Part shown: positions 1,217 to 59,417 of the stretch, one piece after another
How the letters are laid out: each line of letters starts with the position of its first letter
How positions within the stretch are numbered: the first letter of the stretch is position 1
From: Bolinopsis microptera
Lineage: Eukaryota; Ctenophora; Tentaculata; Lobata; Bolinopsidae
Length of the DNA: 64,000 nucleotides
Reading direction: 5' to 3'
NCBI RefSeq assembly: GCF_026151205.1
Contig: NC_087079.1
Coordinates: forward strand, 2,451,730-2,515,729
Translations under genes and position numbers: made by a program
Notes under the pieces: model-generated
Database searches by the model: none
The model's input: the letters and a program-made list of their open reading frames with translations, nothing else
Told to the model about the DNA's origin: nothing

Positions 1217-1762
1217 CTTTTTCAATACACTTCGGAAGATTCTTCAAACTGGAAACGGTCCCATCAGTCTCGCAAGTCAGCTGAGAATGTTCCGGAACAT
1301 AATCAGTTTTGCATTTGACAGTGAAGTTTTGACCCGCGTTAACCTCTTCTGGACTTATGCTTTCAACATTATCAGTGTCCGTGAGTTGTGGTTTAGAACA
1401 GGTACCAGTAACACACTTTGGGGAATGATCCAAACTGGACACAGTCCCATCAGTCTTACAGATCAGTCCAGCATTTTCAGGAATATATCCAGATCTGCAC
1501 AAAACAGTGAATTTCTCTCCAGCGTTGACCTCCTCCGGGCTTACACTTTCAACATTATCAGTCAGTTCTGGTTTAGAGCAAGTTCCAATAACACAGTTTG
1601 GTGATGCAGGAGACAACTTCCCATCTTTCCCACACAATAGTTCTGTTTCACCTGGCACATAATCAGACATGCAAGTGATGGTGTACTTTTCTCCGGCTTC
1701 TATATCAGCAGTGTCAGGGGTGACAGTAGCAACGTTGGAGTCTGTAGGCTTGCTGCACTTTT
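1217..1762 (-). CDS. Gene A exon 15: three further CCP-like repeats
   Basis: 546 bp, beginning with the same bases after its acceptor as exon 14 (CCAG then AAAAGTGCAGC) and ending at a homologous donor (AAAG/GTGACAC). It encodes CCP-like repeats 5-7. The first repeat carries the same variant block as repeat 1 of exon 14 (IEAGEKYTITC, then SDYVPGE against SDYVPSE), so the whole exon was duplicated, and repeats inside it then multiplied. If not spliced, the frame runs on to a stop near 1140. Confidence 0.88.
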
Positions 1763-4700
1763 CTGGTTAGAAAATGAGTTTAATATCTTCAGATGTTATA
1801 TCATTCAACAGCAACAATGCTGAAATAGCGAAGTAAAGAGCTCCTCACAAAAAATTCTTGAGCTCTTTAATACTAAGTTAGCTTGGCAATAACATGTAAA
1901 TTAAACATTTTATACAGTTAGAATTTGCATTCCGACCTGTACTGAATTTAATCAAAATAAATTGCATGCAACATAAATTGCATTCTATATTTCTAATAAC
2001 TTAATGTAGAATGGTATAGAATTGTAGATGGTACAGAAACATGAACTAGCGAACCTGCGACTTGCGAGACTTAAAAATATAAAAAGTAGCAGCTGCCATC
2101 TCCAGCCTTAGGAACAATAACTTGACTTTACGAGTGCAGAATAACAAGCAAAAGCTGGAATCTAAAACGAAGCTGGAATTTACAGCAAAGCTGGCATCTT
2201 TTAGTTCAGCTCAATCTGCAGCGTTAACGAGGAGACACGATAAGATCTACCAGCGGGGGACACAGCAATTTATTAATAACTTTATTATAAATACCTTGTG
2301 CGCGTACCATTATAATAGTGACCCTCATTTTACCGGCACTAATTCGGCCGATTTTTATAACTTAAGCGTACAAAGTGGGAAGATAACAAATACTGGCAGC
2401 AAGATGAACGTTTACTCCGAATAGCTTTCACCTTGTTCGTTGCATTTTGGGGAATAGTCTAAACTAGAAAAGGTTCCGTCGTCAGTTTGACAGATCAGTT
2501 CAGCATGTTCAGGAATATACCCAGATTTGCACAAAACAGTGAATTTCTCTCCAGCGTTGACCTCTTCCGGGCTTACACTATCAACATTATCAGTCAGTTC
2601 TGGTTTAGAGCAAGTTCCAATAACACATTTTGGGCTATAATCCAAACTAGCAGAGGTTCCGTCAGTTTCACAGATTAGTTCAGCATTTTCAGGAATATAC
2701 CCAGATTTGCACAAAACAGCGAATTTCTCTCCAGCATTGACCTCTTCCGGGCTTACACTATCAACATTATCAGTCAGTTCTGGTTTAGAGCAAGAACCAA
2801 TAACACATTTTGGGGAATAGTCCAAACTAGAAGAGGTTCCGTCAGTTTTACAGATCAGTTCAGCACTTTCAGGAATATACCCAGATTTGCACAAAACAAT
2901 GAATTTCTCTCCAGCGTTGACCTTCTCCGGGCTTACACTTTCAACATTATCAGTCATTTCTGGTTTGGAGCAAGAACCAAGAACACACGTTGAAGCTGGA
3001 GACAACTCCCCATCCACCGCACACAATAGTTCCGCTTCACTCGGCACATAATCAGAGATACAAGTGATGGTGTACTTTTCTCCGGCTTCTATCTCTGCAG
3101 AGTCAGGGGTGACAGTAGCAACGTTGAGGATGTTCGGTTTGCTGCACTTTTCTGGCAAGTATACAAATGTGATATACCAGTCGCTACCATTCAGCAGCGG
3201 TGGTCTAGCTACAGTGCATTTTTGAAAAAAGCTTTGCTTACTGAATCAGCAGAAATTAATACATACACTGTTGACTGTGGCAACAAAATAAAAGTTGTTT
3301 TGAGAGATGGGGGAGGCGATATAGACTTAACTTTACAGGATATTCGCAAATTCAGAAGCTTGTGAAAGGTGGTAGATGAGCAAAGTTAACTTTAATAATC
3401 TTATAAGAAGGCATTCAAATACGATTAGCTTCATTAGACAATAGAAGTACTTGGTAAAAACTCAGAAATTCTTATACAGCGGGAGGGGTCTTAAACTATA
3501 AATAAAAATGAGTTTGTAGTAACAAATTAAACGTTTTAAGCTGTTACAATTTCGCAGGGGTCTGTATGTTGGTGCTATTTTTTTCTAATTGTGAATAAAA
3601 TATGAATCTAAATGGTCTGAATTTGGAATTTGACACCAAAATGAATACCAAAGACAGCTAGGATGAAGTTTCTTTTAATTTTGATCAGTCCCTAAAATCC
3701 CTTCAACTAAAAGAGCAAATCTGTTTAAACGTAAAAACTACATTACAGACTCATGTTATAGAACAACCTCATATAGGCTTTGTGAGTAAAAATGATAAAG
3801 AGCGATGATTAATTTATCGAGCATAAAAACATGTGCCACAAAGACCTCAATAAACTTGAATTGTTCTATACGTATAGACAACGACCTGTCTATACGTATT
3901 ATTGCAGTTCCTCTGTTCCTTGTGAGGCAAAAGCCTTCTAATCTGAACGATGCAGGCTCCTAATTTGAGCAACAGTATTGGGGTGGCTCTAGGGCCGGTA
4001 GTATTCAAGTTAGGGTTTAAGTCATCGAGACCTGCATTCTCTAGATACCTGACCGTTTTATATAACATGAAAATCTTACTGTAGCAAAATCACTGACTGT
4101 TAAGAATGAAAGAAGCATAACAACAGGACCAATGGTGCTGAAAGCGTTATTCCTGGTTGAATACCATTTACTCTGAAAAGTGAACAGAGTTTTATGGACA
4201 CTTTTGATGGTGATTTGTGATTGCAAACTGAATTTTATTAATTAAATGAGGGATCAAAATCAAGTAATAAGATCGTAATCAGAACAACAAGATAATTTAT
4301 TAAAATGAAAAGTTGAAAAAAAAATCAAATTTCGAAAGATCAAGCAGAAAGATCAAGCAGAAAGATCAAGCAGAAAACCCTGAAGTTGGTTACGAGAACT
4401 ATCAAAACTTACTGTCAACAGGTTCAGGGTCAGGGATCGGTTCTGGGAACATAAGAGTGATATTTTCTGATTTTATAAATTTAAATAAATTTTATGAAGG
4501 CTAGTCACATATTCATGAAACTCAACACTACCACCTGGAGTAAATATCATTTATATACAATTTTTGTAAAATCTATTTCAAATGAACCAAAACACGCCGG
4601 TTAGTGCAATCTTTGGGAAAAGAGGCAATTTCTATATACATTTAAATGATTATTTAGATATTCAAACATATAGAATGTCCTCTATGGTCACTATGGTAGC

Positions 4701-7700
4701 ATTTCGTACAGCTAGTTAAACAGAAATGTCATCAATAAAGAATAATTTGACCTTATTCAGAAGATTACATAAAAATAGAGATCCTGTTGATCTTGAAGTT
4801 TATTAAGACCTATCATCATGTCAAAAATAAATCAAAAGTAATCGTTTGTAATAGTATACCTAACTAAAACCAAAAGTACAGCGAGAATCAGTACAAGCAC
4901 CAGTGATTGGCTAGCCCTCTCATAAAATCAATACAGTTATTGTGTTAAAATATTAAATAACAGATTGGAAAATGGAAATGATAGCAATAAATCATTTGTT
5001 CACCGGCCACAATCAATCTTGTGGGGTAATTGTAAACTGTTAGCTAATCAAGATAAAAAATATCGTCATGAAAGGATAACTGTAGCTACGTATATCTTCA
5101 GTTTTCATAGTTAACATATTATAAACTCCTTTGAGATAGAATAATCAGCCGGAATGGAATAATCAATTCTGATAATCCCGGCTCCCGCTGTTAGTTTTCC
5201 CGCTTAATAAATAACCCCGGCACGTGTTCTATGACTTATAAGAACTATAAATATACTTGATCTACGTATCAGTTGAATTGCAGGCGGTGGCAAAGCTCCG
5301 GCATACTGCTTAAATTACTTCGACTCTTACATTACTTTGACCAGTCCCAGAACTTGTCTTGATGATTACATTTGTCCAGTAAATTTTGTCGTAGCAATTG
5401 CACTGTTTGATATTATAGTCGTCTATTTTGATGAAATTCATGACACGATATCGACTCCACTGTTTTTCGCTTGTCAGGCTTAACTAGACGCCCCTTATTG
5501 ATATTCATTCAATGTTCGAACTGAGGAACTATGTATAAATAGAACGCCAATTTCAACTGTCATAGTACCTTAGTTTTATTTATCTAGTAGTAGTAGTATA
5601 ATTTACGTCCCAATTCCATTTCATATTTTTCATACTAATCTCATATAGATAGAGTCAAAGTTAAATATTAAAACGAATCAGCCCTAGCACTTAGCGACAT
5701 CCCAGAGGTGTTTATAACGCAAAACGCTGGCACGCTCAAGGTTATATTAAAATAACCCCTTGTGCTAAAGCACGTCGGCGTTGTTTTCATAACAATCCCT
5801 CGTGCTTCGCACTCTAAATTATTATCAACTTTTCCAGCGCGTCGCGGGAAAAATAGAAATATAATCCCTGTGCGTGCCGGCGTTATGTGTGTTATGCTTA
5901 GTTCCAGATATAATCCTAAAGCAGAAAGTGCAGCAAGACCAGGAATAGACACCAAAACCCAGGTCCGAGTTTAAGGTCACCTGAAAATAGAATCATTGAT
6001 ATTTTTCATTCTTTCGGTAACTGTCCAGTCCAGATTAAAAAAAACGTATAAGATGGTCAGAAGTGCTAAGTATACTTGTGATAGAGAATAGTAATTATAG
6101 GACTTAAAAAGGCAGTTGATGGAAATTTAACGTCCGCCTTCTAATGGCCTAATGGGTGCAATTCTTGTTGATTTATGAAGGCTAGAAATTCAACACTACC
6201 AGCTGGAGTACGAATCATTTATATAAAATTTTTGTAAAATCTATTTCAAATGAACCAAAACACGCCGGTTAGTGCAATCTTTGGGAAAAGAGGCAATTTC
6301 TATATACATTTAAATGATTATTTAGATATTCAAACATATAGAATGTCCTCTATGGTCACTATGGTAGCATTTCGTACAGCTAGTTAAACAGAAATGTCAT
6401 CAATAAAGAATAATTTGACCTTATTCAGAAGATTACATAAAAATAGAGATCCTGTTGATCTTGAAGTTTATTAAGACCTATCATCTTGTCAAAAATGAAT
6501 CAAAAGTAATCCAAAGTAATCGTTTGTAACAGTAGACCCAACTAAAACCCAAAGTACAGCGAGAATCAGTACAAGCACCAGTGATTGGCTAGCCCTCTCA
6601 TAAAATCAATACAGTTATTGTGTTAAAATAACAGGTTGGAAATGATAGCGATAAATCATTTGTTCACCGGCCACAATCAATCTTGTGGGGTAATTGTAAA
6701 ATGTTAGGTAATCAAGAACAAAAAAGATCGTCATGAAAGGATTAATGTAGCTACGTATGAATGAGAACATGCAGTAACACAGATTGGATGCGCGTCGTAG
6801 TAGTTTGTCACGTGACTCGCGTCATCAAAACACGTGACAGTGCGCGGATGAGATTATCATGCGAATATCAAAATTACTAACCAAATCAAAACACGTGACA
6901 GTGCGCGGATGAGATTATCATGCGAATATTAAAATTACGAACCAAATTTAGTCGAGCTAAAGCGAGGCAGGATTAAAGAAACTGTGCCGGGGTTATTTAT
7001 TAAGCGTGGAAAAATAGCGGGATTATCAGAATTGATTACCTTGCGAGACATAATATACATATTCGACATAATTCCGGTGACCCATATCCCAGATGTGTTT
7101 ATAATTATAATATTTTCCTGGAATTCTTTCCCCGAAAAGTCGTGGACACTGGTAACCGATAATTTTCCCAAAGGGTTGCCAGAGTATTTTGAGGACAGAT
7201 TGTGAGTCACCTTAGGGCTCAGACTGGCTGACGGGAAGTTTCAAAACAAATAACAGTGGCGCAATATATATAAATATTAGTATCACTCACTATATTGTAT
7301 CATGCGCACTTTACTGTCACAGTTGCAATGTAAAAGTATACAACCGCATTATATATTTGATATAATCACGCATAACGCTGTCTTATGAAAGTATGAAATC
7401 TCCCTACAGTTGAAACAAAGCGGCCCCAAGAGTGAGCTCTAAGCTTATATTATTACGTGGGGCTAAACTAATTACGGTACATGTTATCCTCCTCGTTCTC
7501 TCTCCCATCCATTTATGTCACATTTCTGGAACAAAATCATCAATTAAACCACTTACCAACGGCCGATTTTTATAAAATTTGCTTATGGGCTTCGTCAGAG
7601 TTTTGTCAGCACTATACCGAAAAAACCAGTCCCGTAACTATTACCGTTTTTTTTGTATAACCGTTCGGAAATTACACACACACAGACACACAGACACACA

Positions 7701-10700
7701 CACATTCTGGTGTTATTAAGTTGATTGATCTCAGAACAATAACACTATAACAGCACAGCATAATCACATCACGTAAAGAACACCGAAATGCTGGCTTCGT
7801 TCAAACAGCAAACATTTAATTTTGACATTCAGCAAATCATTATATTCTTGCTGCACCTACAAATTTAAAAGTGTAGATTATGGCTATCCACCACGAAAAT
7901 TACTATGTAACGGTACTTACCGGCATCCACTTCTAGAATGCAGCTACCACTACCAAGACCATTGCCACCACAGGACTCAGACGAAATCTTTATTTTAAGA
8001 CCTTTCTGTTCAGCAATATCCGTAAATTCGTAAGTTTCCAGTAATGTCGAGGTTTCACCTGGAGAGAACAGTTATTTTTCCGATAGTTAAATTTCGAGAT
8101 GGTTTTGCGTTAAATTTCATGCAACCAGAGCAAATCTTTCATATAAATGCTCAGTAGCATATTTGTAAAAAAAATACTCACATGAATCGGCAGCTGATAC
8201 ACGAAGTCTTTTCGAAAACAAGGTGTTATTATTCATATCAAGCAAATCCGCCTTAAGACACTGAGCTGATGTGATTGGCGTGTCTGCTGGGAAAGTCAAA
8301 CTGATCTTTTTATCATCTTTAGTTCTTTTTGCTTTGTCACAAATTTTTTGGAATTCGATTGATTCATAATTTTTATTCTTAAATCTCTCCGTTTTCATGA
8401 CTTCAAATAACTGATACTGGAGTCCGTACGCCCTCATGTATTGCCAATAGATGCACCTGATTAGAAGATAACAGTGAGATACCTTACTAAGAGAGCGTAC
8501 ATCAGGGTCAGATTTTAAGATAATGTCAAAACTATAAAAATATTTGGTCTTAACTGTGCCCTTCAAAGACTAGATCTTCCTTTCTTTAAGAATTGAAGAG
8601 TAGGTTTACCCAACGGTTATGCTAAATCTAATACTGGATATCTTTATCACCGTTTCAATGAATTTGAGGTGTCTGATCATGTTTATGGTGAACGGAAAAA
8701 TGAAGCTGTTATTATTCTCCCCATTGGGAATTACAATAGATATTCAACAATTATCATGAAAACATTTTGACACTGCAAGAATATCTATAAAATTAACCTT
8801 GTTTGATGGTTCGCCTGTGGTTCTGGAAGTTCATCTTCATACTTATCTTGATCTATACCTGCCCTATCTTCATAGTCATAATTCTGCTCGGTGTCCGTAA
8901 TGAACTGGATTTTGTAATCGTTAAGGTAGAATTTCCAGTTGTCTGCTTTCAACAGGATCTGAAATTTTTGTAGTTAGGACCAGAATACCCTTAAATTTAT
9001 TCTTCACATAATATGATCTTAAACAATCGATAGATCAATGTGATTATGAAGTTAAACAGGTTAACAAAAAGTTTGAAGTTATCATGGAGGTAAAGTTTCA
9101 CTTTCCCGTGCTTTCGAACAGAATCTAAGATACGTCATAGTAAATATTTTATCCTAAGATTGACTCCGCAAAATAACCATAAACAAACTTGTTTGGCATT
9201 GTCCCCAGCTAGAGCTTCACTAGGCATCATGTAGGCTTTGTTGGGTGTTTGTTTTAAATCATCCCCCAGATTCACACAGGTCCGTGACGTTAAGGGGATG
9301 GATAGAAACTGAAAGTTTCAGTTTTTATCTTTCACAAATAGAAAAGAAAACAATTGTCGCTGATCTATGGGTAACGATTTTGAACTTAAATTAGTATTAA
9401 GATGTTAATTCTTTCATTCATAAAAAACAGGGGGTATTGACAGTAAGAGGATTCACAGTTATTTCACAGATGTAAGTTATTGCAAATGATTCTGGACTTT
9501 CTACAGTATGTCGATGACGTCTTTCGCTCATTATAGTTACAGTTCTGTAGTTTTTCATCTAAATTTGGATCCAGCCATGAAATCATCAGGTTAAATAGGG
9601 ATTCTCGTATAAATATGTACAAACGGTTTGTTGAATATAAAAGATATACCTTGGGAGCAATCACAACTTCAACTTTTCCAACTCCAAATTGTTTGCTAGT
9701 TATATCTGCCTCCACTCCATCAGTAGTTCTTTTGATCTGAGATATATTTATTGTTTAGATTGCTGAGGAATTTAATACGTTGTTCTTCGTCAGTATTATC
9801 AAATGCTGCCTCCAACAAAGTCAGACCAAATCCCGCCTGTGTAGAGCTTTAAATCGATCTTTAAAGTACACCATAATTTGAATTTCAAATACTAAAGATC
9901 AAGAATTAAAACCTTGCACTGGAACTCGTGTTCTCGATGCTTAACTAGATCGGTAACAGTCAGGGTTCGGCCATGGTTGGAAAGCTGAAGATTAGGATAA
10001 TCGTCGACGTTAAGATCCACTGTGAAGGAACGAACATTAGTTTTAAAACTTAGAAATATTAAACAGTGATATAACTATAACGATGTACAGCTATGATTCA
10101 TATTTAAAAATCACAAAAATCTTTAAAACGATTGAATTGATTTTTATCCAAAAACATTGATATTACTCACAATTGCATATGATAATCAATCATGAATATT
10201 TATCAGTTCACTAGAGATAGCCTGCAAAAGTTTGTCTCTTACCGTCTTGGTTATTTTCCTCGATTTGCCAAATGTAACTGACATCTTCCCATTTACCCCT
10301 GCCAGGAGTATCTCTGATGAACACCGTAAAGTTGACAGTCGAATCCTGGTCTACCAAATTTGGTTCTGTTATCTCTGATACAGGTCTTAAAAGGAGGGCG
10401 CCCGCATCGTTCTGGCCTTGGGATTTATACGTAAGTTAAAAATCCAGCGTTAAAATAAAGTTGTACAGTAATTAACTGATCAGAATGCAGTAATCATTAA
10501 ACTTAAAGACTACCACTTTTTAAAAATCAAAACACTTATTTTACTTCGGAGTATTCCAACAGCCACATTGTTACACAAGTGCAACCAGCCAACTACAAGA
10601 AGCCGTAGGATTTATTTGGCCAGTGACGGCTAAGGTAATGTGTTTTTCTTCGCCCGAAACTTTGCTGCGATGTGCAGCTCCTAATTTTTAACCATTATAC

Positions 10701-13058
10701 CCGATTTCTCGAGTATTTGGCTGAGTAGACCGGGGGGCTGCATAGACCACTCAGGATCCTTAGCTGAACGTCAACGACGCTCACCCCACGACCAGGCAGA
10801 CAGTGGGATTCGAACTCGCAACCTCACGATTGCAAAGCTGGCGTTCTAACCGACTGCGCTACCTGGCCGTAAATATATCAAACCAAGCATTTTGTCTCAT
10901 TTCATGCAGTATATTAATTATATTAATATAATGAAAATAATCACCGTTCGATGTGACTTCGTATTTGGAAAGTTCATAAGTCATATCAGCGTCGTCAAAT
11001 TCAGTATCGTATACGGCCTCGCACTTATAATTGCCTTGGTCCTCATCTTCATTAAAGATCATGATTAGCAGCGTTCCTCGATCTATGTCATCTTTTGATA
11101 TCGCACTTATGTCATCTTCAGCTATAACAAGTCTATCGCCCCTAACTTGGTCATTTGGAATGTCTATCACTTCCCAGGTTGAAGTATCTTTTTTCTCAAA
11201 CGACCTGTCACAGTGCAAAAGAGTTTTGAATGTAATCATCTAAATTTATCAATATCATGTTTTGTTTTACAGTTCAACACTTTAAATCCTAGTTTTATTG
11301 AAAACGATTAAGATTTCTCTAAAAATGAAGAAGAATTGATTGGAAAATACTCCGTTGGAGATCAATTAAATTGCTTACCACCGGGCCTTGGTTTTTGGAT
11401 TCGAATCTGGTAGCTTGCAAAGAAGCTTCTCCATTGCTTTTCCAATAGATACAGATTTGGGGTCTGATACGACGGGCAAATTTTCTTTGGTAGGTGGATC
11501 TGAAATATTTCTTATCTTCATGGCAGCCCTGATTATTGTGCAAGCAAGTACTTTAGTACTTTATTGGTTGATAGTTGGTGAGGAAGTGAGAGTCTCCACT
11601 TAGTGTTTCAAAACAATTAGTTGTCGACGTTTCAGGCAACACGCCTTTATCATAGACAACTAATTGTTTTGAAACACTAAGTGGAGACTCTCACTTCGTC
11701 ACCAACTGTCAAACTATATGATCAATCCACTCATAAGAGCTAAGAAAGATTACCATTAGTACTTTATTACTGTGATCATTATTTATCACTTATTTATATT
11801 GGTAACAAATTGAATTTAAGTTAACGTACAATAAACGTCCAGCTTGACTGTATGAGACCACAGTTTGACAACAGCATCATCTATCATCGTTATCTCGGCG
11901 TAACACTGATAAATGTGGTTATCTGCTGTATCCAAAGTATTCTGCATTGATGGTTTGTCTGTGTACTGCACGTTGGTCAGGTCGCAAGTAGGAACATCAT
12001 CATCCGAACAGAGCTGTAAATGGTATCAAGATATTGTAATTTGGTGCTTATAACAGTGCTTCTCATGAAAAAGTTAGATCAACAGGCTTTAAAAATGTTC
12101 AATCTAGTGCAATAAAGAGATGAGCAACTGCGCCTAATCCAATGTCTAGATAACTGCAAGATGGGATAAGAATAAGAATTGCGCCCGTTGTTTCGTTGTG
12201 GCGGACGCTAGATTTCCATTCACTTCAACTACAAGCTCTAATCAGCTCACTCATAGTTCATAATATTATGAATATTGTGTTTTAAATAGGGAAACACTTG
12301 TGATTGAATTCAATTGCTGTAGAACTTAATTTTTATCTGTAATTTAAGAAATAGTAAGCAAAAAGTCAACTATACTCATGTTTTATAATTGTACACATCA
12401 GTGCAGTATACTACACATACAAATTGGGCTCATTGCCCAATAGTAATACATTAAAATACACTCGCGCCGCGCATACACTGACTAAAGGCTATAATATACA
12501 TCAAATCTCCGCAAGCAACCCTTGCTCGCGTCTAGTTGTGTAATTGTCAAGGTAACAAACGGAATGACAGTTCATATTTAAACCTACCTACCTCGTTCTT
12601 ATTACTATTGTCTTTTTACAAGAGTGTGAATGGAAAAAATCAGAAAAATCAAAAAACATCAAAAATCTTTGATGTACCTCTTTGTTCTTGGAGTCGAGAG
12701 AGATTGGTTTACTCGTACTAAGATCATAAGTTTTGTGAAACTCGTATACCACTGACTTGATTGCTGGGTGGTCCTTATCACCAAGATCACACCTGAGAAG
12801 TATAATATTCGAAATATTTGATATTTCATAGAATATCGAAGATGGGTGCAGCATGGATGAATCTTTTGATCAATCAGTTAAAATAGTGTAGGTCCTAAAA
12901 TGTCTACTACTCACTTAAGTGACACAGTGGAGTCCTTTTTAGCTATATACATAAAACCATTTTCTAAACTTTTCGTTGTGTCGGATACTTCAGCTGTTAA
13001 TGATAGGGTTAGATCAGGGCAACAGCATATTTCCACTGATTGAGATACTTGGGAGTGC
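1217..13058 (-). CDS. Gene A: Ig-like/CCP receptor, partial (no first or last exons seen)
   Basis: Reconstructed minus-strand gene, a close paralog of gene B (51506-59417). Exons in order: 13058-12915, 12792-12678, 12013-11830, 11499-11379, 11204-10945, 10416-10243, 10019-9913, 9736-9650, 9308-9189, 8958-8798, 8456-8182, 8058-7921, 3151-2432, 1762-1217. All boundaries are GT-AG, phases agree throughout, and most exon lengths equal those of gene B; differences are multiples of three. About 1,050 codons are visible. Domains: N-terminal CCC motif, three Ig-like domains, a membrane-proximal module of unknown family, then seven CCP-like repeats. Family knowledge says such proteins sit at the cell surface or are secreted. 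The exon for the signal peptide is not found above 13058, and no transmembrane or tail exon is found below 1217, so the gene either runs off the left edge or is truncated at both ends. Expression is untested. Confidence 0.85.
2432..3151 (-). CDS. Gene A exon 14: four CCP-like repeats in one exon
   Basis: 720 bp. The acceptor GCCAG is followed by AAAAGTGCAGC, the same exon start as the single CCP exon of gene B and as exon 15 below; the donor AAG/GTGAAAG is at 2431. It encodes four repeats of about 58 residues, each starting CSKP and with four cysteines (CSKP, VLC or ITC, LIC or LLC, PKC or STC), plus NAGEKF and GYIPE motifs. Repeats 2-4 are nearly identical to each other, showing recent internal duplication or gene conversion. 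CCP/sushi domains are protein-binding modules of complement regulators and adhesion receptors. The Trp normally found before the last Cys is absent. Confidence 0.9.
4489..5093 (+). repeat. Direct duplication, copy 1
   Basis: About 600 bp nearly identical to 6170-6758, in the same orientation, with a few substitutions and small indels. It lies inside the long intron of gene A (3152-7920). Both copies are followed by a member of the fold-back family described at 5119-5975, so the duplicated unit was probably repeat plus element. Confidence 0.85.
5119..5975. mobile_element. Fold-back/MITE-like element, CCCGG-rich ends (copy 1)
   Basis: One end reads TTATAAACTCCTTTGAGATA and an inverted counterpart near 5703-5720 reads ATCCCAGAGGTGTTTATAA. 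The interior is shared, in reverse orientation, with 37095-38045. Recurrent motifs are GATAATCCCGGCTCCCGC and AATAAATAACCCCGGCAC. An outer part (5720-5975) repeats shorter inverted motifs around AATAACCCC/GGGATTAT. No transposase is present, so this is a non-autonomous element or its remains. Confidence 0.6.
6170..6758 (+). repeat. Direct duplication, copy 2
   Basis: Second copy of the 4489-5093 sequence, in the same order and orientation. Its tail carries an extra AATCCAAAGT-like insertion near 6505. No coding potential is seen. Confidence 0.85.
6780..7205. mobile_element. Fold-back/MITE-like element, partial copy 2
   Basis: Shares GGGGTTATTTATTAAGCG, GGGATTATCAGAATTGAT and the CACGTGACAGTGCGCGG motif with the copies at 5119-5975 and 37095-38045. 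A 60-bp segment with CACGTGACAGTGCGCGGATG is present twice in tandem (about 6829-6930). Open frames here are by-products of the repeat. Confidence 0.5.
8182..8456 (-). CDS. Gene A exon 12: membrane-proximal module, variable segment
   Basis: 275 bp against 305 bp in gene B, so ten codons shorter and still in frame. Both ends are nearly identical to B (start CIYWQYMRAYGLQYQLFEV, end SKRLRVSAADS), but the middle after KTERFKNKN differs in sequence and length. No known domain is recognised. Confidence 0.85.
10516..10870 (-). mobile_element. tRNA-derived SINE in gene A intron 6
   Basis: Read on the minus strand it starts GGCCAGGTAGCGCAGTCGGT (an RNA polymerase III A box, TAGCGCAGTCGG) and about 45 bases later has GAGTTCGAATCCC (B box), the layout of a tRNA head. 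A tRNA-unrelated body of about 280 bp follows, ending in an A/T-rich tail. The paralogous intron of gene B (53392-53560) lacks it and shows the uninterrupted flank at about 53457-53475, so the insertion came after the A/B duplication. Confidence 0.85.
10797..10868 (-). other. tRNA-like head of the SINE (not a functional tRNA call)
   Basis: A/B-box internal promoter with tRNA-like spacing. The putative anticodon loop contains TTTGCAA, which would give GCA, but acceptor-stem pairing was not verified. It is best regarded as a pol III promoter of the SINE. Confidence 0.7.
10945..11204 (-). CDS. Gene A exon 6: core of Ig-like domain 2
   Basis: 260 bp, identical in length to gene B exon 6 and almost identical in protein. 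It contains the canonical Ig F-strand pattern DQGNYKCEAVYD (the D.G.Y.C motif). The Trp that opens the C strand is split across the exon 5/6 junction. The donor is GTGATT where gene B has GTGAGT, a slightly weaker site. Confidence 0.9.
11568..11712. repeat. 145-bp hairpin with GGC..GCC-GAAAC core, gene A intron 4
   Basis: Two arms of 58 bp with about two mismatches (left from TTGATAGTTGGTGAGGAAGT, right ending CGTCACCAACTGTCAA) enclose a 29-nt centre. On the minus strand the centre reads AAAGGCGTGTTGCCTGAAACGTC. The same structure sits in the same intron of gene B, so it predates the duplication. Other family members are near 13752-13850 and 51266-51350. Confidence 0.85.
12165..12545. repeat. 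Dispersed repeat in gene A intron 3
   Basis: Contains GCGCCCGTTGTTTCGTTGTG, GGCGGACGCTAGATTTCC and, near the other end, AAAATACACTCGCGCCGCGC with ATCTCCGCAAGCAACCCTTG. The same blocks occur at 56240-56545 (gene B intron 10, opposite orientation on the + strand) and partly at 40660-40855 (gene C intron 12). The paralogous B intron 3 is only 115 bp and lacks it. Confidence 0.75.
12915..13058 (-). CDS. Gene A exon 2 (first visible exon): mature N-terminus with CCC motif
   Basis: 144 bp, the same length as gene B exon 2. It begins one base into a Trp codon in the B frame and encodes the EICCCPDL stretch and the first strand of Ig-like domain 1. The acceptor is TTTTCAG and the donor GTGAGT. In gene B the preceding exon (signal peptide) lies about 300 bp upstream; the corresponding stretch here (13060-13450) contains a poly-A/T run and a minisatellite, and no signal-peptide exon could be found. 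Confidence 0.85.
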
Positions 13059-13229
13059 CTGAAAATAATTGTTTTTCAAGTTCTATTAGATAAGAGTATC
13101 CATTAAAAGACATTCTAAAAGGTTTTATTGACACGGGGAAAAAAAAAAAAAAAAAACTGCCTCAACAATATTTGCAGCACTCTGACAATACTTACTAGTT
13201 ATCATTACAAAACTTAACACGAAAAAAAA

Positions 13230-47291: not shown

Positions 47292-47470
47292 CGTAAAATG
47301 AGTATTGAGTAAAATGAGTGTAGAATTGTTGAATATAATAAAAATAGTAGTCTTTAAGTTGATGGGTGGGTTGATATGTGAGATATTCTACACGTGCCGA
47401 GAATGCGATTATTGAAATCTACTCAAGACACGCTTTAACGGTATAATTTACGTTAGATAAAACTAACGTA

Positions 47471-48773: not shown

Positions 48774-49646
48774 TGGTTACCAGTTGTCAGTGTAGTGGTT
48801 ACCAGTTGTCAGTGTAGTGGTTACCAGTTGTCAGTGTACTGGTTACCAGTTGTCAGTGTACTGGTTACCAGTTGTCAGTGTACTGGTTACCAGTTGTCAG
48901 TGTACTGGTTACCAGTTGTCAGTGTACTGGTTACCAGTTGTCAGTGTACTGGTTACCAGTTGTCAGTGTACTGGTTACCAGTTGTCCGTGTACTGGTTAC
49001 CAGTTGTCAGTGTACTGGTTACCAGTTGTCAGTGTACTGGTTACCAGTTGTCAGTGTACTGGTTACCAGTTGTCAGTGTACTGGTTACCAGTTGTCAGTG
49101 TACTGGTTACCAGTTGTCAGTGTACTGGTTACCAGTTGTCAGTGTACTGCACTGGTTACCAGTTGTCAGTGTACTGGTTACCAGTTGTCAGTGTACTGGT
49201 TACCAGTTGTCAGTGTACTGGTTACCAGTTGTCAGTGTACTGGTTACCAGTTGTCAGTGTAGTGGTTACCAGTTGTCAGTGTACTGGTTACCAGTTGTCA
49301 GTGTAGTAGTTACCAGTTGTCAGTGTACTGGTTACCAGTTGTCAGTGTACTGGTTACCAGTTGTCAGTGTACTGGTTACCAGTTGTCAGTGTACTGGTTA
49401 CCAGTTGTCAGTGTACTGGTTACCAGTTGTCAGTGTACTTGTTACCAGTTGTCAGTGTACTGGTTACCAGTTGTCAGTGTAGTAGTTACCAGTTGTCAGT
49501 GTACTGGTTACCAGTTGTCAGTGTACTGGTTACCAGTTGTCAGTGTACTGGTTACCAGTTGTCAGTGTACTGGTTACCAGTTGTCAGTGTACTGGTTACC
49601 AGTTGTCAGTGTACTGGTTACCAGTGTACTGGTTACCAGTTGTCAA
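48774..49646. repeat. 22-bp minisatellite (TGTACTGGTTACCAGTTGTC plus AG), about 40 copies
   Basis: Near-perfect 22-bp units with occasional TGTAGTGG, TGTAGTAG and TGTACTTG variants. The open frames over it persist because the short unit contains no stop in several phases. Not protein-coding. Confidence 0.96.
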
Positions 49647-51505: not shown

Positions 51506-51549
51506 ATGAGCTCACTTCCTAACTTATTGGCCTTACTGATAGTACTATG
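51506..51549 (+). CDS. Gene B exon 1: signal peptide
   Basis: The ATG opens MSSLPNLLALLIVL. The split Trp codon TG/G is completed by the exon at 51854, giving WHSQLSHSVEICCCPDL. The donor is GTGAGT. Confidence 0.85.
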
Positions 51550-54500
51550 GTGAGTTAACCGTCATGAATTTTGTACATACAATTGTTATACGTATAGTTA
51601 ATAAACTTCAAAGATTGAATGAAGACGAACGACAGGATTGTAATCTTGGGAGTGCAGAAATTATTTAAGTTATTTAATGTTAAAGGCGGGTTTTCCTCAT
51701 TCCTTGCCGAAATATTGATCAATTCTAAAGAATTTTTACAATTTTGACCATGTTAGATATAAAATAAACAATAATAATTGTCAATTATAACAACATGTAT
51801 TTAGATATAAGATAAACAATAATAATTGTCAATTATAACAACATTTATTTTAGGCATTCCCAACTGTCTCATTCTGTGGAAATATGCTGTTGCCCTGATC
51901 TAACCCTATCATTAACAGCTGAAGTATCCGACACAACAAAAAGTTTAGAAAATGGTTTTATGTATATAGCTAAACAGGACTCCACTGTGTCACTTAGGTG
52001 AGTAGTAGACATTTTAGGACCTACACAATTTTAACTGATTGATCAAAAGATTCATCCATTCTGCACCCATCTTAGATATTCTATAAAATATTAAATATTT
52101 CGAATATTTTACTTGTCAGGTGTGATCTTGGTGATAAGGACCACCCAGCAATCAAGTCAGTGGTATACAAGTTTCACAAAACTTATGATCTTAGTACGAG
52201 TAAACCAATCTCTCTCGACTCCAAGAACAAAGAGGTACATCAAAGATTAGATTTTTCTGATTGTTCTTATACCATCTTACAGTTATCTAGGCATTAAGAA
52301 GCACTGTTAAAAGCACCAAATTATAATAATATCTTGATACTATTTACAGCTCTGTTCGGACGATGATGTTCCTACTTGCGACCTGACCAACGTGCAGTAC
52401 ACAGACAGACCATCAATGCAGAATACTTTCGACACAGCAGATAACCACATTTATCAGTGTTACGCCGAGATAACGATGATAGATGATGCTGTTGTCAAAC
52501 TGTGGTCACATACTGTCAAGCTGGATGTTTATTGTACGTTAACTTAAATTCAATTTGTTACCAATAAGCATGATCGCAGTAATTAAGTACTAATGGTAAT
52601 CTTTCTTCGCTCTTATGAGTGGATTGATCATATAGTTTGACAGTTGGTGACGATGTGACAGTCTCTACTCAGTGTTTCAAAACAATTATTTGTCTATGAC
52701 AAAGGCGTGTTGCCGAAACGTCGACAACTAATTGTTTTGAAACACTGAGTGGAGACTCTCACTTCCTCACCAACTATCATACAATAGTACTAAAGTAAAA
52801 CCAATGCTTGCATAATAATCAGGCTGCCATGAAGATAAGAAATATTTCAGATCCACCTATCAAAGAAAATTTGCCCGTCGTATCAGACCCCAAATCTGTA
52901 TCTATTGGAAAAGCAATGGAGAAGCTTCTTTGCAAGCTACCAGAGTCGAATCCGAAAACCAAGGCCCGGTGGTAAGCAATTTAATTGATCTCCAACGGTA
53001 CGGAGTATTACCCAATCAATTCTTTTTTGATCAAACTAGGATATAAAGCGTTGAACAATGAACTGTAAAACAAAAACATGGTATTGATAAATTTAGATGA
53101 TTACATTCAAAACTCTTTTGCACTGTGACAGGTCGTTTGAGAAAAAAGATACTTCAACCTGGGTAGTGATAGACATTCCGAATGACCAAGTTAGGGGCGA
53201 TAGACTTGTTATAGCCGAAGATGACATAAGTGCGATATCAAAAGATGACATAGATCGAGGAACGCTGCTAATCATGATCTTTAATGAAGATGAGGACCAA
53301 GGGAATTATAAGTGTGAGGCCGTATACGATACTGAATTTGATGACACGGATATGACTTATGAACTTTCCAAATACGAAGTCACATCGAACGGTGAGTATT
53401 TTCATTACATTTGTATTATATACTGCACTGTGTGAAAAGGGACAAAATGCTTGGTTTGATATATCATTAGTGGTAGTCTTTAACACTTACTGCATTCTGA
53501 TCAGTTAATTACTGTAAAACTTTATTTTAACGCTGGTTTTCTAACTTACTTAATCCCAAGGCCAGAACGATGCGGGCGCCCTTCTTTTAAGACCTGTATC
53601 AGAGATAACAGAACCAAATTTGGTAGACCAGGATTCGACTCATGTCAACTTTACGGTGTACATCAGAGATACTCCCGGCAGGGGTAAATGGGGAGATGTT
53701 AGTTACATTTGGCAAATCGAGGAAAATAACCAAGACGGTAAGCGACAAATTCTTTAAAGATTTTTGTGATTTTGAATTATGGATCACAGCTGTTGTACAT
53801 CGTTATAGTTCTTCTTTTGATTGGTCGGCGTCGACTGTAAGCCTTCCTTGCGGTGGCTTTCACAACGCGTCCCCATTCTCCAACTCCTGCTGCTAGAGAG
53901 AGAGACTCCCAAGTTATATACCATAATTATATTATACATAGATATCGACAACAGACTCCGAGAGTCTTGAAGTTCTGTTACCACTTCCAGGGACGGTCAT
54001 GGCCTGCTACATGCAACTCGTAGGAGTATGCAATGTTCCTGTAACGTCATTGTAGACCACTCCTCTATCGTTGTTTTGAGTGTCCGATCCAAAACCAAAT
54101 CCTAGGGTACACGAGACGTGGAAGCCTGTGAGCGTGTTAGAGTCTGTTAAGTGTTAGAGTCCTAAGGCTACACGAGACGTCCTAGCCTGTGAGCGAGTTA
54201 AATCCTAGGGTTACACGAGACGTGGTAGCCTGTGAGCGTGTAGACCGCTCCTCTATCGTTGTTTTGAGTGTCCGATCCAAAACCAAATCCTAAGTACACG
54301 AGGCGTGGTAGCCTTTGGACGTGTAAAATCCTGGGGTTACACGAGACATGGTAGCCTGTGAGCGTGTAGTCCGCTCCTCTATCGTTGTTTTGAGTGTCCG
54401 ATCCAAAACCAAATCCTAGGGTACACGAGACGTGGAAGCCTGTGAGCGTGTTAGAGTCTGTTAAGTGTTAGAGTCCTAAGGCTACACGAGACGTCGTAGC

Positions 54501-57500
54501 CTGTGAGCGAGTTAAATCCTAGGGTTACACGAGACGTGGTAGCCTGTGAGCGTGTAGACCGCTCCTCTATCGTTGTTTTGAGTGTCCGATCCAAAACCAA
54601 ATCCTAAGTACACGAGGCGTGGTAGCCTTTGGACGTGTAAAATCCTGGGGTTACACGAGACATGGTAGCCTGTGAGCGTGTAGTCCGCTCCTCTATCGTT
54701 GTTTTGAGTGTCCGATCCAAAACCAAATCCTAGGGTACACGAGACGTGGAAGCCTGTGAGCGTGTTAGAGTCTGTTAAGTGTTAGAGTCCTAGGGTTACA
54801 CGAGACGTGGTAGCCTGTGAGCGTGTTAAATCCTAAGGTTACACGAGACTTGGTAGCCTGTGAGCGTGTTAAATCCTGGGGTTACACGAGACGTGGTAGT
54901 CTGTGAGCGTGTAGACCGCTCCTCTATCGTTGTTTTGAGTGTCCGATCCAAATCAAAATCTTAGGGTACACGAGGCGTGGTTATAGTTATATCACTGTTT
55001 AATGTTTCTAAGTTTTAAAACTAATGTTCGTTCCTTCACAGTGGATCTTGACTTCGACAAACATCCCAATCTCCAGCTTTCCAACCATGGCCGAACCCTG
55101 ACTGTTAGAGATCTAGTTAAGTATCGAGAACACGAGTTCCAGTGCAAGGTTTTAATTCTTGATCTTTAGTATTTGAAATTTGAATTATGATGTACTTTAA
55201 AGATCGATTTAAAGCTCTACCCAGGCGGGATTTGGTTCGACGCTGTTGGATGCAGCATTTGATAATACTGACGAAGAACAACGCATTTAATTCCTCAGGA
55301 ATCTAAACAATAAATATATCTCAGATCAAAAGAACTACTGATGGAGTGGAGGCAGATGTAACTAGCAAACAATTTGGAGTTGGAAAGGTTAAAGTTGTGA
55401 TTGCTCCCAAGGTATATTTTTTATATTCAACAAACTGTTTGTACATATTTATACGAGAATCCCTTTTTTTAACCTAATGATTTCATGGCTGGCTCCAAAT
55501 GTAGATGAAAAACTACAGAGCTGTATTTATAATGAGCGGAAGAGGTCATCGACATACCGTAAAAGTCCAGAATTATTTGCAATAACTTACATCTGTGAAA
55601 TAACTGTGACTCATCTTACTGTCAATACCCCCTGTTTTTTAATAAATGAAAAATTTAACATCTTAATACTAACTTAAGTTCCGAATTCTTATCTATAGAT
55701 CAGCGACAATTGTTTTATTTTCTATTTGAAAATAAAACATATAAAAACTTAAACTTTCAGTATCTATCCATCCCCTTAACGTCACGGACCTGTGTGAATC
55801 TGGGGGATGATTTAAAAGCAGCACCCAACAAAGCCTACATGATGCCTAGTGAAGCTCTAGCTGGGGACAATGCTAAACAGGTATGTTTATGGTTATTTTT
55901 AGGAGTCAATCTTAGGATAAAATATACGGGAAAATGAAACTTTACCTCCATGATAACTTCAAACAATTTGTTAACCTGTTCAACTTCATAATCACATTGA
56001 TATATTGATCATAATATTATGTTAAGAATAAATTTGAGGTATATTTGCACTTTAAAAGTCTCATTTCGAAAATACTTTTTGTTAACTTTTTACTTAATAA
56101 GTACCATTTTTCCCGGTCACCCTTTTGTAAAAAGGCAATAGTGAAAGGTTACGAATGGACGTTTTTGCAGAAAAACGTGGATTTTGGAGATAGCAGTAGG
56201 TGGGTCTGAATATGTTGTCATCTGTCCTTACTTCCGTCCGTTACCATGACAACTAGCGCGCAGTGCAGCGCGCCAGTATTGCTTGCGGAGATGTGACGTA
56301 TATAGCTAGCCTGTCTACCTTAATGAATGCGCGGCGCGAGTGTATTTTAATGTATACTATGCAATGTATAGTATTAGGTTATAAGCCCAATTTGTACGTG
56401 GCATGCGTAGTTTTGTGTACTGATGTGTATAAATATTATTATTATGAAGTGAGCTGATTGGAGCTTATATTTATAGTTATAGTGAACGGAAATCTAGCGT
56501 CCGCCAAAACGAAACAACGGGCGCAATTCTTGTTGACTTAAGTACCGTTTCGGAAAGGACCCCCAGGTCCTAACTACAAAAATTTCAGATCTTATTGAAA
56601 GCAGACAACTGGAAATTCTACCTTAACGATTACAAAATCCAGTTCATTACGGACACTGATCAGAATTTTGACTATGAAGATAGGGCAGGTATAGATCAAG
56701 CTCAATATGAACTAAAACTTCCAGATCCACAGGAGAACCATCAAACAAGGTTAATTTTATAGATATTCTTGCAGTGTCAAAATGTTTTCATGATAATTGA
56801 TGAATATCTATTATAATTCCCAATTGCAATGGGGAGAATAATAACAGCTTAATTAAACTGTAAACATGATAAGGGCACAGTTAAGACCAAATATTTTAAT
56901 ATTTGGTCTTACTCTTAAAATCTGACCCTGATGTACGCTCTCTTAGTAAGGTATCTCACTGTTATCTTCTAATCAGGTGCATCTATTGGCAATACATGAG
57001 GGCATACGGACTGCAGTATCAGTTATTTGAAGTAATGAAAACGGAGAGATTTAAGAATAAGAATAAAAACCTCCAAGCAAATCAATTCGAATTCCAACAA
57101 ATTTGTGAGAAAGCAACAATTGTAATTGTATATGTTAAAGAAGATGAAGATATAAAGGTCAGTTTGACTTTCTCAGCAGACATGCCAATCACATCAGCTC
57201 ATTGTCTTAAGGCGGATTTGGTTGATTCGACTAATAAAATCTTGGATTCGAAAAGACTTCGTGTATCAGCTGCCGATTCATGTGAGTATTTTTTATTTAC
57301 AAATCTGCTACTAAGCATTCATTTGAAAGATTTTCCCTGGTTGCATGAAATTTAACGCAAACCATTTTGAAATTTAACTATCGGGAAAAAATAACTGTTC
57401 TCTCCAGGTGCAACCTGGACATTACCGCAAATTTTTGAATTTACGGGAATTGCTGAACAATTGCTGAAAGGTCTTAAAATAAAGATTTCGACTGACTCCT

Positions 57501-59417
57501 GTGTTGATAATAATCCTAGCTATAGCTGCACTATAGAAGTTGATGCCAGTAAGTAAAATTACATGGTATATTATAGCCAAGGTACACCATTTTCTTTGGT
57601 CAGCCCTACTCACAGGAGGGGCTAAGTGCAAAGAAACTGCTGCTAACTGCTGCTCACTGCTGCTCACTGCTACTAACTGCTGCTCACTGCTGCTCACTGC
57701 TGCTCACTGCTACTAACTGCTGCTCACTGCTGCTGTCGCGCGCGCGCCCATAGCAGCAGTGAGCAGCAGTGAGCAGCAGTGAGCAGCAGTTGCGCGCAGC
57801 GTGCGTTGTGCAGTAAAGACATGCATATAACTGCTGCTAACTGCTGCTCACTGCTACTAACTGCTGCTCACTGCTGCTCACTGACAGCAGCAGTGAGCAG
57901 CAGTGAGCAGCAGTGAGCAGCAGTGAGTAGCAGTGAGCAGCAGTTAGCAGCAGTTTCTTTGCACTTAGCCTCTCCTGTGTATATACTAGGTTATGGGGTG
58001 CTGAATGTTTCCTGTTACCATTTTGTAGCCAGTATTGGGGGAGGGAGCTGGAGGGGTATAAAAAAGCTAAAATTTGGCTCACGTATTGTTTGAACAATCC
58101 CTTACTGTCGCCAACATTTAAACCAATATTAACATAGGCTACAAATCGGTGTTAGTTATATTCATACGACGCTACAAAAATGCAGTCCCCTCCCACATTT
58201 ATATGAAGATTAACCAATCGCTGACACAATTTTATAACCAGAAAAGTGCAGCAAGCCTACAGACATTCCAAACAGTGATCATATTGAGAATATCAGTCCA
58301 GATGTGGTGAACGCTGGTGAGAGCTTCACTGTTAAATGCGCTCCGGGATATATTCTGAAAACTGAGATGATCTGTCAGAGAGATGGAACTGTTTCCGATT
58401 CGAAGTGTGTTTTAGCAGAGAATGATATAGAGGAAGTAACCGACCAAGACGAAGGTGAGTTACAATTTTTAATGATGTTCTTAACTTTAACATTTATCCT
58501 TTTACAAAAAACGACATGATAGTTCTAATATTGTTACGTGAGTCCTCCAGGGAGGGGCTATTGTAATTACACTAGAAATTGTTTAACTCTGTATTATAAC
58601 TCAGCTTATAATGGTCATGATGATGATGTCTTGCAGTTGCTGGATTCACACCACATGATCGTGTGACAAGTCTCCAGAGTCCCCACATCACGTGACATGT
58701 ACCACTCGTCACTTTTCTTTTCATATGCATGGCATTTGGTAATCTCACCGTCACGACACCCTCAATCAGATTGACATATTATGAACTTTTTAACAATATC
58801 TCTCTGTCGTTGCAGATAAAAAGCGCTCGCCCATGCTGATAATTATACTGGTAGTTGCGGGGGTGGTGGTGTTAGTAGTGGTGGTGGTAGCTTGTTTAAT
58901 CAAGAGACAAGGAATGGAATGTGCAAACAGTGGAAAAAGGTAAGTGTATTTAGTACTGTGACGTTAGTAGTACGACAAAAATACAGATACTTCGCTTTAC
59001 AATGTTAGGAGCATTATACTTACACTATACCACCCAGAATGTAGAAGGATTATATCGTCGTTGAACAATAAACTTGATTTTAATTAGTTCAGCACGGTGT
59101 TATCTATCATTCATTATCACCCACAGGAAAGACAGGGTGTAGTACAGTAAAACCCAGATTTACCGCGGCTATTTCCTTCCCCAATTATAGGGCTTAACAT
59201 GCATAATGTGAACAAACAAAACCCCGATTTACCGCAAACCCCGATTTACCGCGGTTATTTCCTTCCCCCAAACTCTATACCATTTTACATAATATATTTA
59301 ATGCACAAACCCCTCAGCAAGAAGAAAGCAAAAGAGACAAATAAAACAGAAGTTCAGAAGGATGGTGTTAAAGAGGGAACTGTATTAAGTAATGAAATAA
59401 ACGATAACAAAGTCTAA
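51506..59417 (+). CDS. Gene B: Ig-like/CCP type I membrane receptor, complete
   Basis: Sixteen exons: 51506-51549, 51854-51997, 52120-52234, 52350-52533, 52851-52971, 53132-53391, 53561-53737, 55042-55148, 55325-55411, 55761-55880, 56589-56749, 56977-57281, 57408-57548, 58242-58454, 58816-58939, 59318-59417. They sum to 2,403 bp, 800 residues plus stop, with matching phases. Signal peptide 1 to about 17 (MSSLPNLLALLIVLWHS); EICCCPDL; Ig-like 1 about 20-163; Ig-like 2 164-290 (DQGNYKCEAVYD); Ig-like or PKD-like 3 291-413; membrane-proximal module 414-655 of unknown family; CCP-like repeat about 657-712; transmembrane helix 733-755; 45-residue Lys-rich tail without Tyr, so no ITAM or ITIM. By architecture it acts at the plasma membrane as a receptor or adhesion molecule; the ligand is unknown. 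An AATAAA lies at 59462. Confidence 0.9.
52637..52780. repeat. Hairpin with GGC..GCC-GAAAC core, gene B intron 4
   Basis: Orthologous to the gene A hairpin. Arms flank a centre with AAAGGCGTGTTGCCGAAACG. The centre resembles stem II plus the GAAAC strand of a hammerhead ribozyme, but the CTGATGA strand is not intact. Confidence 0.85.
53132..53391 (+). CDS. Gene B exon 6: core of Ig-like domain 2
   Basis: Encodes WSFEKKDTSTWVV through DQGNYKCEAVYD to the G strand. The paired Cys is in exon 5 (KLLCKLPE). Differs from gene A by only a few residues. Confidence 0.9.
53811..54980. mobile_element. 1.17-kb insertion in gene B intron 7 carrying a satellite
   Basis: Flanked by the 9-bp direct repeat GTTATAGTT (53802-53810 and 54980-54988; first base ambiguous). 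Gene A has the single uninterrupted site (CGTTATAGTTATATCACTG in its intron 7), so this is a clean insertion. About 54030-54980 is a tandem higher-order repeat built on TACACGAGACGTGGTAGCCT, GTGAGCGTGTTAAATCC and CGCTCCTCTATCGTTGTTTT, with a super-unit of about 300 bp. No obvious terminal inverted repeats. A 9-bp TSD would fit a Mutator-like or unknown element. Confidence 0.8.
56240..56545. repeat. Dispersed repeat in gene B intron 10
   Basis: Reverse-oriented relative of the gene A intron 3 repeat (TTGCTTGCGGAGATGTGA; GCGCGGCGCGAGTGTATTTT; AAATCTAGCGTCCGCC; GGGCGCAATTCTTGTTGA). The intron is about 700 bp here and 230 bp in gene A, so it was inserted after duplication. Confidence 0.75.
56883..56910. 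repeat. 28-bp palindrome, gene B specific
   Basis: AAGACCAAATATT, TT, AATATTTGGTCTT. The flanks match gene A, but gene A has unrelated bases in place of the right arm. Confidence 0.95.
56977..57281 (+). CDS. Gene B exon 12: variable segment of the membrane-proximal module
   Basis: 305 bp. The first and last thirds match gene A closely; the middle (after FKNKN, up to VSLTFSAD) differs and is ten codons longer. It ends in SAADS and a Cys split with exon 13. Confidence 0.85.
57611..57979. mobile_element. Fold-back element of CTGCTG/CAGCAG repeats, gene B intron 13
   Basis: Ends are inverted: CACAGGAGGGGCTAAGTGCA and TGCACTTAGCCTCTCCTGTG (one mismatch), continuing into AAGAAACTGCTGCTAACTGC arms. 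Most of each arm is a 10-bp ACTGCTGCTC array, with its reverse complement on the other side. The centre is GCGCGCGC-rich. Confidence 0.85.
58242..58454 (+). CDS. Gene B exon 14: single CCP-like repeat
   Basis: 213 bp, KKCSKPTDIPN through DSKCVLAEND, with four Cys (CSKP, VKC, MIC, SKC) and NAGESF and PGYIL motifs. It aligns with the gene A repeats. It is followed by an acidic linker before the transmembrane exon. Confidence 0.88.
58816..58939 (+). CDS. Gene B exon 15: transmembrane helix
   Basis: Encodes DKKRSP, then MLIIILVVAGVVVLVVVVV ACLI and basic KRQG: a hydrophobic run of about 23 residues with positive charges on both sides. Acceptor GTTGCAG, donor AAAAG/GTAAGT. Confidence 0.88.
59140..59280. 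mobile_element. Repeat with pogo-like terminal motif (copy 2), gene B intron 15
   Basis: Starts TACAGTAAAACCCAGATTTA like the copy at 47471, with ACCCCGATTTACCGC repeated and TTTCCTTCCCCAA-type blocks. A short relic just before the last exon of gene B. Confidence 0.45.
59318..59417 (+). CDS. Gene B exon 16: Lys-rich cytoplasmic tail and stop
   Basis: Encodes KKKAKETNKTEVQKDGVKEG and the rest to the TAA. The acceptor CCCCTCAG completes AG/C (Ser). There is no Tyr, so tyrosine phosphorylation signalling from the tail is not expected. Confidence 0.75.

Follow-up and report, generated by a model that had tools for sequence, protein, structure and literature searches.

In vertebrate paired receptors, labour is divided between a common head and differing ends, and paired receptors of the immunoglobulin superfamily (IgSF) usually carry an immunoreceptor tyrosine-based inhibitory motif (ITIM) in one member and a charged residue in the transmembrane (TM) segment of the other. 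Mammalian examples are CEACAM, SIGLEC11/16 and CD300A/C, in which near-identical ectodomains encoded by two genes are described as serving different functions (PMC5701461, PMC12447643, PMC2832619, and in part general background), and the ectodomains of the opposite-function receptors SIGLEC11/16 are reported to be kept alike by gene conversion (PMC5701461). In the non-bilaterian Hydractinia, the Alr genes form a large linked family of clustered, diverged IgSF TM receptors with at least 41 loci reported (PMC11067881), and for the fuhc-type genes of Botryllus a single locus is described as the source of both secreted and TM products (PMC3691228). Here, we analyse a stretch of 64,000 nucleotides from the ctenophore Bolinopsis microptera (contig NC_087079.1, positions 2,451,730 to 2,515,729 of the forward strand; the window), which contains three IgSF paralogs on one chromosome, gene A on the minus strand and genes B and C on the plus strand. 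Their predicted products start with a signal peptide and have a common head, in which the CCC motif is followed by three Ig-like domains (Ig1, Ig2 and Ig3) and a module of ~240 residues; they differ in their ends: seven complement control protein (CCP) domains and a TM segment in A, one CCP domain and a TM segment in C, and an extra domain followed by a glycosylphosphatidylinositol (GPI)-like end in B. A fourth member, gene D, is located on another chromosome (contig C10).

As in the mammalian pairs, A and C combine near-identical ectodomains with different membrane-proximal parts; the family differs from these pairs by its CCP stalk, its unclassified module, the lack of an ITIM fit and of a charged TM residue, and its ctenophore host. 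Like the Alr receptors, these are clustered, diverged IgSF TM receptors of a non-bilaterian animal, but they differ by their CCP domains, the GPI-like end, the conserved distal Ig domains and their number, with three linked genes and one unlinked gene instead of a large linked family. With the fuhc-type genes, the family would share the occurrence of secreted and TM products; the comparisons with Hydractinia and Botryllus are based on descriptions of these systems, not on their sequences. Mnemiopsis, Bolinopsis and Hormiphora are reported to have hundreds of Ig-set genes, and also C-type lectin proteins with additional domains of the Ig, EGF and Sushi types (PMC11797021). The same survey of immune domains, in the portion consulted, covers TIR2, NACHT, SRCR and lectin proteins and leaves the family with the CCC motif, Ig domains and module unnamed (PMC11797021). 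Similarly, among the papers listed in searches on ctenophore immunity, the Ig superfamily and allorecognition, no title or abstract opening gives a name for this family.

Architecture of the family

Gene A extends from 13418 to 1217 and continues past the left edge of the window; its 15 exons in the window (13 for the head and two for CCP domains) are open for 1067 codons. Gene B (35580-42637) and gene C (51506-59417) have 16 exons each and encode 809 and 800 residues, respectively. The initial annotation had proposed three Ig-like surface receptor paralogs at this place, and the final models of A, B and C agree with this proposal in being open, with GT-AG introns throughout and compatible phases; gene D likewise has an open model with GT-AG introns and compatible phases. 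By simple consensus scores, 8 of 29 splice sites in A, 8 of 30 in B and 6 of 30 in C score below zero, and individual exon boundaries are therefore uncertain.

The same annotation had described a single exon plan for the three genes. This holds overall, except for three differences in the head: the CCC motif is encoded together with the signal peptide by exon 1 in B and by exon 2 in A and C; B is without an intron after 'FQCK'; and B and D have one extra intron within a portion that A and C hold in a single exon. The CCC motif itself is confirmed, with EICCCPD identical in the alignment of A, B, C and also D. A signal peptide, previously recognized in B and C, is not restricted to these two genes, since A has a signal exon at 13418-13369 (translation MVSLRLPQWLAIFILS, donor score 3.3). 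This exon resembles the signal exon of D (MVSLRLPHCYLAILILS), agreeing with D exon 1 at 41 of 50 aligned positions, whereas it agrees with C exon 1 at 26 of 44.

The CCP domains of A are encoded as 4 + 3 stretches by two exons, and the Sushi matches exceed the Pfam cut-off both in A (4 + 3 stretches) and in C (one). The first base of the TM exon of A coincides with base 1 of the window, and the rest of this exon lies in the left flank to about -120; a candidate tail with two tyrosines, ending in AAYENVDI, has its predicted exon start at -431. The candidate tail of C comprises 33 residues and is predicted to be lysine-rich and without tyrosine. By contrast with these ends, B is hydrophobic right up to the stop codon with no tail, which by inspection of the sequence is GPI-signal-like, and matches no Pfam family at E up to 1, so that it has no Sushi domain. 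Exon 13 of D can be spliced in phase onto an exon that is rich in cysteine, includes a stop codon and weakly resembles PAN (Pfam PAN_4, E 0.0049; 17.3 bits against a cut-off of 27), suggesting that the end of D is possibly PAN-like. Altogether, the predicted anatomy, namely a signal peptide, an Ig head, and a CCP stalk or GPI-like end, makes a family of cell-surface receptors a well-supported assignment. We suggest that this family is small and perhaps lineage-specific and combines a constant head with different ends, from which we infer its function below.

Domains of the head

Among the three Ig-like domains claimed in the initial annotation, Ig2 stands most firmly: it gives a Pfam Ig_3 hint in three of the four members (best E 4.1e-5; 20.9 bits in C against a cut-off of 30) and has the full C...W...DxGxYxC pattern in all four genes (C174, W190, D..G.Y.C248). 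The assignment of Ig1 and Ig3 is based on weaker profile matches together with the cysteine pattern, which is partial in both, Y replacing W in Ig1 and the first C of Ig3 being present in B and absent from A, C and D. In hhalign comparisons run with no decoys, Ig2, Ig1 and Ig3 score 25.8, 19.6 and 18.0 against a set of Ig domains and 8.6, 9.1 and 14.9 against a set of fibronectin type III (fn3) domains; the corresponding probabilities are low (40%, 7.5% and 4.3%) and the matches short, with 21-23 aligned columns. These sets comprised 10 Ig and 11 fn3 stretches from the same genome, drawn from 14 of 148 Ig and 14 of 16 fn3 matches after exclusion of four Ig stretches that were copies and three fn3 stretches of <48 residues. 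In the PDB, with E values of up to 5 considered, the profile of the four heads matches only carcinoembryonic antigen over Ig3 (E 3.4e-4, with no single stretch passing) and an antibody chain over Ig2 (E 1.2).

The module can be aligned across A, B, C and D. It was initially reported to match no domain, and at the sequence level we reach the same result: there is no match in Pfam, none in the PDB up to E 5, and no clear match to the Ig and fn3 profiles from the same genome (hhalign scores of 8.5-14.4 with both sets). Neither of these libraries, Pfam or the PDB, provides a family name for it. The module may be a domain absent from the libraries searched. Two assignments were considered and dropped, the first half of the module as a fourth Ig domain and the second half of the module or the extra domain of B as fn3: the C-to-W spacing is unsuitable, and the 'KLxV' ends are read-through of donor sites.

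Probable exchange between the heads of A and C

The near-identity of A and C is confined to a block. Pieces detected by blastn with 84-94% identity link A (7901-13076, minus strand) to C (51837-57568, plus strand). Within exons 2-12, 1649 of 1748 aligned bases are identical (94%; 0.88-0.99 by exon), and all 11 of introns 2-12 have a blastn match, five of them aligning only in part; introns 1 and 13 have no blastn match between A and C. With D as the third sequence, the patterns A=C, A=D and C=D occur at 247, 36 and 39 sites in exons 2-12, at 1, 11 and 3 sites in exon 1, and at 11, 9 and 3 sites in the second half of exon 13. These counts were made exon by exon, as a tandem-repeat insert in gene C disturbs the alignment of A, C and D at exon 7. 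Compared with exons 2-12, and with linkage of sites ignored, Fisher P is 6e-9 for exon 1 and 8e-4 for the second half of exon 13.

The simplest account would be that the heads of A and C exchanged sequence between complete genes in inverted orientation, that is, by interlocus exchange or gene conversion, because A, with its D-like signal exon, appears to have been complete already. Alternatively, the block could be a recent partial segmental duplication, in which exons 2-13 were copied in inverted orientation beside other exons. The sharp inverted block with exons and introns alike fits either event; however, exon 1 of A is D-like and stands in the correct place and phase, and the CCP and TM exons of A, ordered as in C, are far diverged from those of C. 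The full gene A therefore probably predates the event, and we consider a partial duplication somewhat unlikely. An assembly artefact, in which A and C would be alternative haplotypes of a single gene set side by side, would explain inverted near-copies within one assembly but is extremely improbable, given that exon 1, the number of CCP domains, the TM exon and the flanks differ between them, that B sits between them, and that their dS is about 0.10.

Selection on the head

All dN/dS values were calculated with gapped codons omitted. Between A and C, dN/dS is 0.19 for Ig1 and Ig2 together (11 nonsynonymous and 15 synonymous changes), with 0.17-0.19 over the comparisons A-C, A-D and C-D, 0.52 for Ig3 and 0.89 for the module (61.8 nonsynonymous and 17.2 synonymous changes; Fisher P 0.001 against Ig1 and Ig2). 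Module exon 12 alone gives 1.43, a figure that rests on 5.2 synonymous changes and hence does not demonstrate an excess over 1. Against D, the dN/dS of the module is 0.28 in both A-D and C-D; the faster change between A and C would therefore be recent and perhaps reflects relaxation. Over exons 2-13, values of 0.25 (A-D) and 0.27 (C-D) indicate purifying selection in the longer term.

Copy number and gene D

The genome searched comprises 264.65 Mb in 232 contigs. With the module of C as query, 13 matches were found, located in A, C and D; with the head of C, 27 matches, located in A, B, C and D apart from a weak one (C10:15730853, E 0.022); and with B, 21 matches, located in B itself and in Ig1 or Ig2 exons of the other members. 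Beyond A-D, no further full member was found genome-wide by these BLAST-level searches, which diverged members could escape. A DNA pattern for ICCCPD gave seven genome matches against none for the reversed control, and four of the seven are A-D. One of the three other places (L039, C1:25066609) has a short exon-2-like stretch, MEICCCPDLTLS (E 0.001), with no rest of a gene found within 9.5 kb, and is perhaps a relic; the remaining two sites gave no further supported match to the family.

Gene D (L009 1892-7524 on C10) has part of its exon 10 duplicated amid a TNKQ-coding microsatellite. Its exon 12, for which the acceptor is uncertain, consists of two pieces separated by a long TNKQ array.

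Function and alternative explanations

We see about an even chance that A-D form a small receptor family for recognition or adhesion that resembles paired receptors, with a constant Ig head on different anchors and with the heads of A and C made alike by exchange. In our model, the head of all members would bind one ligand or ligand class, and the end would decide its fate: A would signal through its candidate tail with two tyrosines, C, with a candidate tail without tyrosine, would only anchor, B would be held by a GPI-like anchor, and D would perhaps be released. Most likely, cells would use these receptors to recognize the surfaces of microbes, food or self, with adhesion as a close rival. 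A head-constant, end-variable family with signs of interlocus exchange would be a concrete candidate for the way in which ctenophores discriminate between these at the cell surface. More speculatively, this could be a paired-receptor system in what is possibly the earliest-branching animal lineage, in which one Ig head including an undescribed domain is kept alike by conversion on signalling, anchoring, GPI-linked and perhaps soluble ends; taken as a whole, we regard this proposal as unlikely.

Several observations weigh against our model. The AAYENV of A is unlike the ITIM consensus and the TM segments of A and C are without a charged residue, so that two features typical of paired receptors are absent. 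The gene models are weakest in the tail exons of A and C and at the end of D. For the tail of A there are six in-phase acceptors, two of which give 38-residue frames at near-equal scores (-431, 2.0; -918, 1.9); for the tail of C, the modelled acceptor (0.4) is outscored, and some of the other in-phase acceptors yield frames with tyrosine. In D, a donor within the putative PAN-like domain outscores the preferred donor, and D may yet encode a TM segment, because four hydrophobic stretches lie further downstream. As for the exchange, exon 8 deviates from the rest of the block in which it lies, with 6, 8 and 2 sites of the patterns A=C, A=D and C=D and an identity of 0.93 for A-D and 0.91 for A-C, and exon 1 is merely 44-50 bases long with linked sites, a linkage that the Fisher P overlooks.

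The strongest alternative is that these are ordinary adhesion or guidance proteins of the IgCAM type, acting in cell-cell contact during development or in the nerve net, with anchors that tune adhesion and no immune role. Purifying selection on Ig1-Ig2, the small copy number, and the combination of Ig with other domains and a TM or GPI anchor, which is the usual build of adhesion proteins, are all in agreement with this idea. On the other side are the faster divergence of the module in the A-C comparison, the seven CCP domains versus one on near-identical heads and the confinement of the A-C similarity to the block, each of which is compatible with adhesion too. We treat a purely adhesive role as possible, if doubtful.

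An allorecognition locus like Alr of Hydractinia or fuhc of Botryllus, with polymorphic receptors for self and non-self, would be consistent with clustered IgSF genes encoding a signal peptide, an Ig head and a TM segment and with copies that apparently exchanged sequence. However, the distal Ig1-Ig2 part of the head is conserved between copies, whereas the extracellular domains of Alr1/Alr2 are reported to be highly polymorphic; as judged from sequence features that can be tested, allorecognition gains no support and seems very unlikely. Thus, of the recognition locus suggested in the initial annotation, the receptor anatomy and its plausibility stand, and a large variable allorecognition cluster is not supported, given the four members found genome-wide by BLAST-level searches and purifying selection on Ig1-Ig2. 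Two outcomes had been named there as speaking against recognition. One, orthology to a conserved single-copy receptor, was not seen; the other joined an absence of polymorphism with purifying selection across all domains, and such selection is seen on Ig1-Ig2 and on the module compared with D, but is not strong on the module between A and C.

Gene models

Coordinates follow the gene models unless another basis is given. Gene A is read on the minus strand throughout. Its signal exon 1 (13369-13418) was placed by the donor score and the likeness to D exon 1; exon 2 (12915-13058) encodes the CCC motif and the start of Ig1, exons 3 (12678-12792) and 4 (11830-12013) the rest of Ig1, exons 5 (11379-11499) and 6 (10945-11204) Ig2, and exons 7 (10243-10416), 8 (9913-10019) and 9 (9650-9736) Ig3 to its end. 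The module occupies exons 10 (9189-9308), 11 (8798-8958), 12 (8182-8456) and 13 (7921-8058, its end). A single exon with four CCP domains (2432-3151; Pfam Sushi E 4.4e-20, 4 stretches) consists partly of a 180-bp tandem repeat, and a single exon with three CCP domains (1217-1762; Pfam Sushi E 9.5e-15, 3 stretches) has its donor at 1217. The TM exon (1-1 in the window) and the candidate tail exon from -431 (locus L007) were read from the flank sequence. The tandem repeat (2443-2987, 3.0 copies, 91% matches) codes for CCP domains of A, and the length of the stalk may therefore vary between individuals.

Gene B, on the plus strand, starts with exon 1 (35580-35670) for the signal peptide and CCC motif, followed by Ig1 in exons 2 (35989-36097), 3 (36256-36367) and 4 (36524-36710), Ig2 in exons 5 (38148-38283) and 6 (38529-38779), and Ig3 in exons 7 (38939-39103) and 8 (39246-39427). 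Exons 9 (39606-39722), 10 (39884-40038), 11 (40202-40311), 12 (40474-40626) and 13 (40948-41073) encode the module up to its end, and exons 14 (41199-41501) and 15 (41675-41773) the extra domain, found in B only, and its end. The last exon (42504-42637), with the GPI-signal-like hydrophobic end at the stop codon, has an in-frame alternative acceptor at 42549.

Gene C, also on the plus strand, has its signal peptide (MSSLPNLLALLIVL) in exon 1 (51506-51549), the CCC motif and the start of Ig1 in exon 2 (51854-51997), and the rest of Ig1 in exons 3 (52120-52234) and 4 (52350-52533). Ig2 is encoded by exon 5 (52851-52971), for which an in-frame acceptor at 52887 scores better than the modelled one, and exon 6 (53132-53391; Pfam Ig_3 E 5.2e-4), and Ig3 by exons 7 (53561-53737), 8 (55042-55148) and 9 (55325-55411, its end). 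The module follows in exons 10 (55761-55880), 11 (56589-56749), 12 (56977-57281) and 13 (57408-57548, its end), the CCP domain in exon 14 (58242-58454; Pfam Sushi 22 bits, cut-off 20.7), the TM segment in exon 15 (58816-58939), and the tail in exon 16 (59318-59417), with the other in-phase acceptors mentioned above.

Genomic surroundings

Outside the exon models, eight long frames in the window have no Pfam match at E 0.01, introns and spacers not having been searched further. An inverted pair of similar segments, 65-85% alike in translation and possibly a mobile element, lies in an intron of A (5207-5970) and an intron of B (36909-37803). Between the three genes are long minisatellites at 24647-26816 (52 bp units), 28871-30251 (13 bp) and 48766-49625 (22 bp).

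Genome-wide, Ig_3 gave at least 148 matches, with 150 of 750 candidates scored, and Sushi at least 150, located on C1 to C13, with 150 of 816 scored. Clustered Ig genes are thus nothing special in the B. microptera genome, because many Ig and Sushi domains lie elsewhere, some of them in larger clusters. A dense Sushi cluster on C13 (about 1.505-1.75 Mb) and dense Ig clusters on C5 (about 15.97-16.10 Mb) and C7 (about 14.70-14.78 Mb) exceed the cluster in the window and are possible variable recognition loci. In keeping with a ctenophore genome, an ionotropic glutamate receptor (L004) has as its top PDB match the solved ligand-binding domain ML032222a of Mnemiopsis leidyi, at 407 bits over a 256-residue chain, compared with 243 bits over a longer stretch for the best kainate receptor; this chain also comes first for a second receptor, but not for two others. 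Finally, we note that matches to ionotropic glutamate receptors cluster in long open frames on C12 (about 11.78-11.81 Mb) and C3 (about 15.86-15.94 Mb).

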